From an uncultured Ectothiorhodospiraceae bacterium (GTDB taxonomy: Bacteria; Pseudomonadota; Gammaproteobacteria; UBA6429; Thiohalophilaceae): a stretch of DNA of 64,000 bases. Position 1 is the first letter of the stretch. Every line of letters starts with the position of its first letter. Positions 34,731 to 38,060 of the stretch are shown piece by piece. The notes under the pieces are model-generated. The model saw only the letters and a list, made by a program, of their open reading frames with translations. It did no database searches and was not told the origin of the DNA. The position numbers and the translations under genes were made by a program. The DNA lies in contig CAMYMU010000019.1 in assembly GCA_947259575.1 (NCBI GenBank), forward strand, positions 1-64,000, given 5' to 3'.

Positions 34731-34882
34731 TTTTCTGGGCTCCCTACTTTTCAACCAATTAGCCCAATATTTTTGCGTTTATATGTCAACCTGACCTGGA
34801 TTAAGGCGTTGTAACAGGTAGAGAAGCACAAATTGTGTACCTGAAAATGCAGCACTTAAATACCAATCTAAGGAGAGTAAAC

Positions 34883-35311
34883 ATGAAAATACACAAACAA
34901 GCGATTTTAGGCGTATTTACTGTCATGGCCACAGTTACGCTGCCCTTACAGACCCTTGCTGACGATGGTTTGGGACAGCGGGTTGAAGACCGACTGGATC
35001 GACGCGGGGATCATATCGAGCAACATTTGGATAACCGGGGTGACCGCATCAATAGGCGCATGGATAACCGGGGTGATCGCATTGAGGGACGAATGGAGCG
35101 ACGTGCTGACCGTGCCCGTGAAAATGGTCGCGATGGTCGAGCAGATCGGTTGGAACGAAAGGGCGATCGTATCAACGCACGTCTGGATCGAAAAGGTGAC
35201 CGCATCGATAATCGTCTGGATCATCGCGGACAGCGTGCAGACAGGCGTCTGGACCGTCAGGGAGAACAAGCACATCGCAGGATTGATCGCAAACAACGAC
35301 GTGCAAACTAG
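34883..35311 (+). CDS. Secreted protein of Arg/Asp-rich 11-residue repeats
   Basis: AAGGAGAG lies 6 bases before the ATG, fixing the start. The 142-residue protein has a signal peptide (about 1-26, ending TLA). The rest is almost wholly a repeat of the form L-D-x-R-G-D-R-I-x-x-R, 11 residues long, about nine copies, with a break at RENGRDGRADR. Examples are LDNRGDRINRR, MDNRGDRIEGR and LDRKGDRIDNR. The hendecad period predicts one long, highly charged, basic helix. No family name is known to me. It is followed 110 bp later by an ECF sigma factor operon that ends in another Arg-rich exported protein. Confidence 0.85.
   Translation: MKIHKQAILGVFTVMATVTLPLQTLADDGLGQRVEDRLDRRGDHIEQHLDNRGDRINRRMDNRGDRIEGRMERRADRARENGRDGRADRLERKGDRINARLDRKGDRIDNRLDHRGQRADRRLDRQGEQAHRRIDRKQRRAN
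35003..35290 (+). repeat. 33-bp (11-codon) tandem repeat array inside a CDS
   Basis: The repeat is clearest at 35029-35095, where GGATAACCGGGGTGA-C/T-CGCAT recurs exactly 33 bases later, and again as CTGGATCGAAAAGGTGACCGC near 35180. Divergence between copies is moderate, so this is an old coding repeat rather than fresh slippage. It encodes the 11-residue units of the secreted Arg/Asp-rich protein. Confidence 0.75.
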
Positions 35312-35421: not shown

Positions 35422-35976
35422 TTGGCAGAACAGTCAGGGACAATAGCGAGCGATCTCGATCAGTTCCTTGCCGAACACGAGCGAAGGGCTTTTCGTATGG
35501 CAATGATCGCGACCGGTGAGCAGGCAGATGCACTTGATATCGTGCAGGAAGCGATGCTAAAGCTGGTTCGAAGTTATGCGCGTAAACCAAAAACGGAATG
35601 GCCTGCCTTGTTTCATCGTATCGTGCAGAATGCGATAACTGACTGGTTTCGACGCGAGAAGATCCGCAGGCGTTGGCGACAATGGTTTCATCGAGATAGT
35701 GATGATGAAGATCAAGGTGATGCACTGGAACAGGTAGAACAGGCCGGGACACATCAACCGGATGATATGGTCAAGCAAGAGTATGCTATAAAGAAACTGG
35801 ATGAATTGTTGAACAAACTTCCAATAAGACAACAACAGGCATTTTTATTACGGCAATGGGAAGGACTGAATGTAGCCGATACCGCAAAGGCAATGGGTAT
35901 TAGCGAAGGTAGTGTCAAGACTCACTACTCTCGCGCTGTGCATAGATTACGTGAACAACTTGAAGAACATGTATGA
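35422..35976 (+). CDS. RNA polymerase ECF-type sigma factor
   Basis: The 184-residue protein has sigma region 2 (about 10-85), with FRMAMIATGEQADALDIVQEAMLKLVRSY and the promoter-melting stretch WPALFHRIVQNAITDWFRR. A charged linker follows. Region 4 (about 120-175) shows KLPIRQQQAFLLRQWEGLNV and AKAMGISEGSVKTHYSRAV as its helix-turn-helix. It begins with TTG. It heads an operon with a DUF3619 membrane protein 13 bp downstream, a candidate anti-sigma, then two exported proteins. This gene order (sigma, DUF3619, DUF3106) is familiar from beta- and gammaproteobacteria. Confidence 0.93.
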   Translation: MAEQSGTIASDLDQFLAEHERRAFRMAMIATGEQADALDIVQEAMLKLVRSYARKPKTEWPALFHRIVQNAITDWFRREKIRRRWRQWFHRDSDDEDQGDALEQVEQAGTHQPDDMVKQEYAIKKLDELLNKLPIRQQQAFLLRQWEGLNVADTAKAMGISEGSVKTHYSRAVHRLREQLEEHV

Positions 35977-35989
35977 CTGAGGAACGAAT

Positions 35990-36430
35990 ATGAAGGATGC
36001 TAAGCCTCCAGGAACTGAGCCACTAGAAAATAAGTCCCAGGATAATAATTCCCAGGATAATAATTCTAGGCAGATGCTAACAGGAGCTGAAGATGTTCTA
36101 GCTTCAGTAAAACAACAATTGGATGAAGCAGAACAATCGCTATCGGCTGAAGATTTACGCTCACTACGACTAGCACGTGCTAATGCTATCGAGACATTAA
36201 ACAGGCGTAAATTTTATTGGCGGCCTGTTGCAGCGGTGGCAACTGCTGCAAGTGTAGTCGCGATTGTGATTGGACTTCAGGGGATACAAACTGCTAGTTT
36301 TGATCCTTCTTATGAAGTAGGGGCTCACTCAGTAGAAGACTTGCCATTACTAAGTGCATCTGAAGAGTTGGAGTTTTATGAAGAACTGGAATTTTACCAA
36401 TGGCTGGAGCTTGAAGACCGCGCGGGTTAA
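35990..36430 (+). CDS. DUF3619-type membrane protein, candidate anti-sigma factor
   Basis: The 146-residue protein has a polar, Asn/Gln-rich head with a duplicated SQDNN unit. A helical region follows (about 30-75, VLASVKQQLDEAEQSLSAED, then LARANAIETLNRR). One membrane helix lies at about 80-102, and the acidic tail reads EELEFYEELEFYQWLELE. Size, single helix and position right after an ECF sigma gene match the DUF3619 proteins of such operons. An anti-sigma role is inference from position; no zinc-binding ZAS motif (H-x3-C-x2-C) is present. Confidence 0.75.
   Translation: MKDAKPPGTEPLENKSQDNNSQDNNSRQMLTGAEDVLASVKQQLDEAEQSLSAEDLRSLRLARANAIETLNRRKFYWRPVAAVATAASVVAIVIGLQGIQTASFDPSYEVGAHSVEDLPLLSASEELEFYEELEFYQWLELEDRAG
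36036..36065 (+). repeat. Exact 15-bp tandem duplication in CDS
   Basis: CCCAGGATAATAATT occurs twice without a gap (36036-36050, 36051-36065) and encodes the doubled SQDNN of the DUF3619-type protein. The perfect identity suggests a recent slippage event or a phase-variable length site; being 15 bp it stays in frame. Confidence 0.85.
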
Positions 36431-36665
36431 ATGTGCTGTGGTTCTGGGATTCTTGATGACAATGTTGAATCAACAAACATACGCCAACAATGTTACCAGT
36501 GACGAAGAAATCCCATCGATAGAGTTTCTTGAATTTTTAGGTGCTGGTATTACGGTTGATGAAGAATTTCTTGACCCAATGAACTATGACGAAATTGAAA
36601 CTAATTCCCTGTCCGATTCGGTAAACAAAACCGAAAACGAAAAGATGCAAAAAGATGATGATTAA
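36378..36665 (+). CDS. Small acidic exported protein in sigma operon
   Basis: The 95-residue product has a hydrophobic segment (about 20-32, CAVVLGFLMTML) ending at NQQTYA, which looks like a signal peptide with a long, partly basic n-region. The mature part is strongly acidic (DEEIPSIEFLEFLGAGITVD, then many D and E). The ATG at 36378 has GGAG 5 bases upstream and overlaps the DUF3619 gene by 53 bp; a TTG nearer the gene end is possible. It overlaps the DUF3106 gene by 11 bp. The acidic product may pair with the very basic DUF3106 product. Confidence 0.65.
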   Translation: MKNWNFTNGWSLKTARVKCAVVLGFLMTMLNQQTYANNVTSDEEIPSIEFLEFLGAGITVDEEFLDPMNYDEIETNSLSDSVNKTENEKMQKDDD

Positions 36666-37269
36666 ATCTTTACTTAGTTTATTAATGATATTTAGTCTGA
36701 CTTTGACTTTTCAGGCACAGGATGTGCTTGCCCAAAACGGTATTAGCTGGGAGAGCTTGAGCGAAGATGAGCAACGTGTTTTGCAACCACTGGCAGACAG
36801 CTGGGATCAGTTACCGGCAGAGCGTCAGTCCCGCCTACAAAAAGGTGCACAAAACTGGGATAACATGAGCCCAGAACGCCGTGAACGTGTCAAACGCAGG
36901 TATGAGCGTTGGCAATCCATGACGCCAGAACAACGTGCGCGCATGCGTGATCGCTTTGAGCGTTTCCGCAAATTACCACCTGAACGTCAAAAAGAATTGC
37001 GTCGACTGTACCACTGGTATAAATCCCAACCAGCAGAACGTCGGGAAAACATACGTAGACGCTGGCAGAACCTGACACCCGAACAACGACGTAACTACCG
37101 AGAATTTTTGCAAGACTTCTCGCCTGAAGAACGACGTGCAATTAGGCGACGCATGCGAGAGGCTTCACCGGAAGAACGTCAGCGCATGCGCGAACGCTGG
37201 CGCAATGCAACCCCTGAACAACGACGTATATATAAAGAGCGTTTACGCGAACGGAATCGAAAACAATAG
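36655..37269 (+). CDS. DUF3106 Arg-rich exported protein
   Basis: The 204-residue protein has a signal peptide (about 1-26, ending VLA) and then Trp/Arg-rich helical repeats. From about residue 64 these have an 18-residue period (SPERRERVKRRYERWQSM, TPEQRARMRDRFERFRKL), then a 15-residue period (TPEQRRNYREFLQDF, SPEERRAIRRRMREA, SPEERQRMRERWRNA). The [STP]-P-E-x-R start of each unit is the DUF3106 signature. The fold is probably a series of short helices in the periplasm. It is the last gene of the sigma operon, translationally overlapped with the acidic gene. Function unknown. Confidence 0.88.
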   Translation: MMIKSLLSLLMIFSLTLTFQAQDVLAQNGISWESLSEDEQRVLQPLADSWDQLPAERQSRLQKGAQNWDNMSPERRERVKRRYERWQSMTPEQRARMRDRFERFRKLPPERQKELRRLYHWYKSQPAERRENIRRRWQNLTPEQRRNYREFLQDFSPEERRAIRRRMREASPEERQRMRERWRNATPEQRRIYKERLRERNRKQ

Positions 37270-37589
37270 TGAGCCAGCAGCTTTAGTATTGTAGCTTTGC
37301 AAAAGGTTGTTTAGCCGTAACAGAATAATTCTATTAATTCTTCTTATGCTCTTTTATAAGCTGATTTAATAGTCCTCTCATAGAATAAATTGAATTGCCA
37401 TTCCTTGACTTCGCCATGACTTGAACCAGAATCATGTTAGTAACAATCGATTTAGTCAGCATGTTTTATGGGGTGCAGTACTGGCAGGGAGGTATCCAGA
37501 GCTGAGTTTGTAAAGTGCGTAACAAAATTTTTGTAACTCACAGTTGATACAAACCGCTTGATAACCTTAATTGTGTCAGGAGGTGTCAC
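37270..37589. other. Gene-free interval upstream of SodC-like gene
   Basis: This 320-bp AT-rich stretch holds no ORF I can support. It should contain the end of the sigma operon transcript and the promoter of the SodC-like gene. The notable element is the near-palindrome at 37519-37537. I see no intrinsic terminator for the DUF3106 gene and no RNA-like fold. Confidence 0.5.
37519..37537. promoter_or_regulatory. Near-perfect dyad upstream of SodC-like gene
   Basis: GTAACAAAA-T-TTTTTGTAAC pairs at 8 of 9 positions on each side and lies 52 bp before the ATG. It could be an operator. The contained TGTAAC also resembles an ECF sigma -35 element, but I see no matching -10, so this is only a suggestion. 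Confidence 0.35.
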
Positions 37590-38060
37590 ATGAAAAAATT
37601 TCTTATCGTGTTGTTTGTTGCATGTCTACCCTTTTCAACGGGGCATGCTCGAGAGATCGCGGTCACCATGCATGCTTTAACAGCAAGTGGTGTTGGCGAT
37701 TCAATTGGTGTCATTGTTGTGACTGATACAGGTAACGGGCTGCGTATGACGCCTTACCTGTCAAATATGCAACCCGGTGATTTTATGTTTAGCATAAATG
37801 AAAACGTCGGTTGTCATGGACAGATCACAGGCTTTGACACTGCAATACCAGGACTGGCTGCAGGCAAGGCGCTTTGGCAAATGCCAACCCTAACAGTCGC
37901 CGCGGATGGACAGGTAACCCAGTCAGTGGAGATAGCGAATGTACGTCTCACGGATTTGAGTCAGCGGACATTGGTGATTTCAAAGGCAGCTAGCCCAACA
38001 CTGGCTCTTGCAGGTTTCCAGTCCGAACGTGTTGCCTGCGGTTCACTCGAGCTTTATTAA
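37590..38060 (+). CDS. Secreted SodC-like protein lacking copper ligands
   Basis: AGGAGG precedes the ATG. The 156-residue product has a signal peptide ending GHA (1-20). It lines up with Cu,Zn superoxide dismutase: VTMHALTASGVGDSIGVIVV for the first strands, GLRMTPYLSNMQPGDFMF, LTVAADGQVTQSVEIANVRL and VACGSLELY at the end. The SodC copper motif F-H-x-H is FSIN here (S68, N70), and the later copper His is S131 in LVISKA. The zinc loop is shortened. The disulfide pair is kept (C75, C150). It is probably not a dismutase; it may be a structural or binding relative. Confidence 0.75.
   Translation: MKKFLIVLFVACLPFSTGHAREIAVTMHALTASGVGDSIGVIVVTDTGNGLRMTPYLSNMQPGDFMFSINENVGCHGQITGFDTAIPGLAAGKALWQMPTLTVAADGQVTQSVEIANVRLTDLSQRTLVISKAASPTLALAGFQSERVACGSLELY

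Follow-up and report, generated by a model that had tools for sequence, protein, structure and literature searches.

The whole stretch of DNA that we analysed, 64,000 nucleotides long and called the window below, contains a gene for a putative SodC-like pseudoenzyme, with a Shine-Dalgarno sequence and a group of conserved genes ahead of it (Table 1). The original prediction had placed the reading frame correctly; it starts with ATG and its product has 156 amino acids. Read by eye, the first 20 residues have the basic start, hydrophobic core and A-x-A-like end of a Sec-type signal peptide. Cleavage probably falls after GHA, the signal peptides of the orthologues terminate in AQA ahead of RE, and the mature protein comprises about 136 residues. 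A lipoprotein reading was set aside: Cys12 falls within the signal peptide, but no proper lipobox surrounds it and one orthologue has Gly at this position.

Table 1. Position of the SodC-like gene, its residues of interest and its upstream features in the window.
Feature	Coordinates	Strand	Basis or remark
ECF-type sigma factor, head of the upstream gene cluster	35422..35976	+	Pfam; 3/4 loci, the fourth contig ending before this position
DUF3106 protein, conserved upstream neighbour	36655..37269	+	Pfam 1e-31; adjacent in 4/4 genus members
Promoter candidate, TTGACT - 16 bp - CAGAAT	37405..37432	+	upstream block comparison
Shine-Dalgarno sequence AGGAGGTG	37578..37585	+	strong
SodC-like gene (putative pseudoenzyme)	37590..38060	+	156 aa + stop; homology, ligand alignment, structure overlay
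Signal peptide, residues 1-20, MKKFLIVLFVACLPFSTGHA	37590..37649	+	Sec type, read from sequence
FSIN, residues 67-70, replacing the copper motif F-H-x-H	37788..37799	+	alignment
Cys75, first disulfide Cys	37812..37814	+	aligns with human C57; kept in 7/7 degenerate homologues
Gly92-Lys93 junction, zinc loop gap including H63 and H71	37863..37868	+	alignment
Ser131 at the last copper His (H120)	37980..37982	+	alignment
Arg147, active-site Arg143 of SOD1, kept	38028..38030	+	kept in 6/6 clade members
Cys150, second disulfide Cys, opens the C-terminal CGSLE	38037..38039	+	alignment

The genus has four sequenced genomes, all MAGs of uncultured Ectothiorhodospiraceae or Gammaproteobacteria; each carries an orthologue and keeps the Shine-Dalgarno core GGAGGTGT. 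The best conserved upstream block, TTGACT-N16-CANACT/CAGAAT, lies some 135-185 bp before the start in 4/4 members and is probably the gene's own promoter. The original prediction had also pointed to a near-perfect dyad 52 bp upstream. The dyad GTAACAAAATTTTTGTAAC is indeed there (37519-37537), but its quality is unremarkable and a regulatory site is unsupported: the window has on average about 1.3 dyads as good in every 333 bp, and this one is missing from all three orthologues, so we gave it no weight and rejected it as an operator.

The DUF3106 protein encoded upstream, which is conserved in the genus, carries many MTPEQRxRxRxRF-type repeats, and in the interval 35990-37269 two small ORFs without a Pfam match precede its gene. 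In 4/4 genus members the DUF3106 gene has the strand of the SodC-like gene. Further upstream, positions 34835-35311 of the window encode an exported, highly repetitive and charged coiled-coil protein with RxDRRGDRIxxRLD-like repeats and weak apolipoprotein/phasin-like matches. The genes downstream of the putative pseudoenzyme differ among genus members.

Homology to SodC, as judged from the sequence, is far beyond chance. A phmmer search with the protein matches Salmonella SodC (2k4w) at 1e-10, and the family profile matches 2k4w at 7e-20 and E. coli SodC (1eso) at E=1e-16 over profile positions 25-151, which bears out the earlier view that the likeness runs from end to end. The single sequence scores below the curated cut-off of the NCBIfam SodC model (2e-13) and below the gathering cut-off of Pfam Sod_Cu (PF00080, E 0.001); its full-length homology places it in PF00080 as an evolutionary family. 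A DNA-pattern scan of genome contigs gave no match with the single protein as query and the three orthologues with an alignment as query, and no match to the protein was found in the plasmid collection.

Structure prediction and overlay on E. coli SodC, the check proposed with the original prediction, gave the expected SodC beta-barrel. The AlphaFold2 model built from 20 aligned sequences reached pLDDT 83.4 and pTM 0.77, with true SodC sequences among the input that push the model towards the SodC fold. Its best Foldseek matches are all Cu,Zn-SODs, and VIA-align superposes it on 1eso with Z 19.0 and rmsd 2.8 over 128 residues, on Bacillus subtilis YojM (1s4i) with Z 14.7 and on domain 2 of yeast CCS (1ej8) with Z 14.4. 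An earlier model made from the four orthologues only was poorer (pLDDT 65), yet its hits were to the same set of structures, at Z 14.4.

None of the metal ligands is left in this predicted barrel. In an alignment of 55 distinct homologues, numbered after human SOD1, positions H46, H48, H63, H71, H80, D83 and H120 of the window protein are S, N, gap, gap, A, Q and S, so that 0/7 ligands remain: the four that bind copper are gone, as are the three that bind zinc only. The alignment confirms FSIN in place of F-H-x-H and Ser131 in place of the later copper His, as first reported; the loss of the zinc ligands (H63 and H71 deleted, H80A, D83Q) had been overlooked. The zinc loop is shortened, as claimed, but by about 17-18 residues and not by about 25, according to one alignment with a hand-entered E. 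coli SodC row and a second with SodC translated from the loci, the phmmer output showing 1eso; about three more residues are gone from the electrostatic loop. Both disulfide cysteines are retained, in agreement with the original prediction, and Cys75 and Cys150 are present in every member of the clade, where the C-terminal motif CGSLE or CGSLExY is clade-specific. We infer that the protein has no dismutase activity, because every ligand is lost in every genus member and the chemistry of SOD is established. Dependence on a metal held at a new site is highly improbable: His28 and His76 are present in the window copy, but neither is conserved in the orthologues and no conserved His remains in the genus members, and metal binding through this pair was accordingly rejected.

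The same state is found throughout the genus. The other three orthologues are 40-45% identical to the window protein, and all four have 0/7 ligands, both Cys, an intact frame, a signal peptide and a Shine-Dalgarno sequence. Two sister proteins from one genus of another family (genomes G074 and G406) have LNVH in place of FHxH and keep 1/7 ligands, both Cys and an intact frame. The ligand census is bimodal, with 7/7 in 48 homologues, 0-2 in seven proteins and none between, in a set that was collected by means of degenerate-clade profiles and whose proportions are not natural frequencies. In the tree, the six full-length degenerate proteins group in a single clade (98/97) that has a long branch and is separate from the 48 homologues with 7/7. 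The seventh degenerate protein, from genome G117 of an unrelated family (L025/L058; G117:C47:25703-26104, minus strand), has FHIQ, 2/7 ligands, both Cys and Gln for the active-site Arg; because it falls outside the clade, its degeneration is probably an independent loss. Within the clade, H46, the zinc loop and H120 were likely lost first, and H48 later, in the genus of the window.

The sequence record of the clade argues for a gene that is maintained. Comparison of the three close orthologues gives dN values of 0.14-0.22 against dS values of 1.9-2.5 and hence a dN/dS of about 0.06-0.09, dS being close to saturation. That the gene is a functionless relic of a decaying sodC is highly unlikely. 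Such a relic does exist in genome G021, from a sister genus in the family of the window (L077:8213-8491), where only the C-terminal 93 residues survive; this remnant contains the motif NIH, opens at a CTG codon and has no SodC-like sequence or N-terminal half upstream. The window's gene also evolves faster than its neighbours, the 40-45% identity to its orthologues standing against 57-66% for DUF3106. However, frame, signal peptide, Shine-Dalgarno sequence and both Cys are intact in 4/4 genus members, frame and both Cys are intact in the two proteins of the other family, and purifying selection and retention speak against decay. They also support the original view that a new role is likely. 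The relatives point to a protein that is maintained and non-enzymatic. The G021 remnant adjoins an LTXXQ/Metal_resist (Spy-like) gene and a cation efflux-like gene.

A SOD chaperone of the CCS type would need an active Cu,Zn-SOD as its client in the same cell. No true Sod_Cu match above cut-off was found in 40 genomes of the family (66-100% complete, genus included), and the sole sub-threshold match is one of the genus's own pseudoenzymes. A search for Fe/Mn-SOD (PF02777) gave no match in the four genus genomes; 13/40 of the family genomes have one. A Ni-SOD search gave no match in the genus, and control genomes were equally without a match. The absence of true Cu,Zn-SOD and Fe/Mn-SOD from the four genus genomes (70-99% complete) is suggestive, and a role as partner or chaperone of an active SodC is unlikely because no such enzyme was found.

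This bears on the reading of the protein as a copper- or SOD-maturation factor in the manner of CCS domain II, to which the fold match with 1ej8 and the surroundings of the gene in the sister lineage lend something. Both G074 and G406 have genes for DUF411, a secreted protein and a TlpA-like thioredoxin in one shared order, transcribed divergently from the SodC-like gene. The DUF411 family is often linked to copper resistance. The secreted protein between DUF411 and the thioredoxin (L076:9135-9767 and L075:6774-7397) has about 210 aa and no Pfam match. A maturation factor nevertheless seems unlikely to us: no client SodC was found in the 40 family genomes, the genus members share no metal-binding residue, and the gene's neighbours in the genus show no copper link. 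The nearby TlpA-like thioredoxin and the two invariant Cys, the sole Cys of the mature protein, could also hint at a thiol-disulfide redox role for Cys75-Cys150; against it, the equivalent pair makes a structural disulfide in SodC and a CxxC motif is absent, and we hold this role to be quite improbable. The contexts in the genus and in G074/G406 share only an envelope flavour, and context names no single function because the neighbours differ between the two lineages. No paper with both SodC and DUF411, or with DUF3106, was found in the open-licence literature.

Taken together, we favour with some confidence the reading of a periplasmic, disulfide-held and metal-free SodC pseudoenzyme that acts as a binding protein. 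It would be exported through Sec to the periplasm, where the Cys75-Cys150 disulfide of SodC would form, and the beta-barrel is predicted to fold with neither copper nor zinc. The zinc loop with its metal ligands is excised and the other ligand positions are taken by Ser, Asn, Ala and Gln. The function of the protein would then lie in binding, as an adaptor or ligand-binding protein of the periplasm that is independent of metal; a link to envelope stress is possible, and the clade-specific CGSLExY is a candidate contact. A tentative alternative, possible but less probable, is a metal-free structural or folding helper of the envelope that keeps barrel and disulfide but has lost the whole metal site, in cells where neither a Cu,Zn-SOD nor an Fe/Mn-SOD was detected. 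The fold of an old antioxidant enzyme has probably taken on a different task here.

Inactive proteins with the SOD fold are known, including CCS domain II, YojM and some viral homologues. The kind is thus known from YojM and CCS domain II; the extent of ligand loss and the clade are not described in the open-licence literature that we found. With bacterial periplasmic SodC (PF00080; 1eso, 2k4w, 6d52) the window protein shares the signal peptide, full-length homology, predicted barrel, disulfide and active-site Arg. It differs in having no metal ligands, a reduced zinc loop and a new C-terminal CGSLExY, and in falling below both the Pfam and NCBIfam cut-offs. Like CCS domain II (1ej8, 1do5, 6fn8), it would have the SOD fold without dismutase activity. 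CCS domain II, however, is one of several domains in a eukaryotic protein whose partner is an active SOD, and no active SodC was found for the window protein. The degenerate SodC of G117 resembles it in keeping both Cys while losing ligands (5/7), and differs in the two that remain and in its place outside the clade. YojM is described, in the part of PMC10432803 that cites Banci et al. (2005), as a SOD-like protein with two copper ligands missing and no activity. On that account it is likewise a bacterial protein of SOD fold whose copper site is broken; unlike this reported case, in which only two copper ligands are lost, the window protein belongs to a different, gammaproteobacterial clade and lacks all seven copper and zinc ligands as well as most of its zinc loop. 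The graded relatives (7/7, 1/7, 0/7 and the independent 2/7) form a natural series, which lets one ask what a metal-free SodC barrel does and why the disulfide outlasts the active site.
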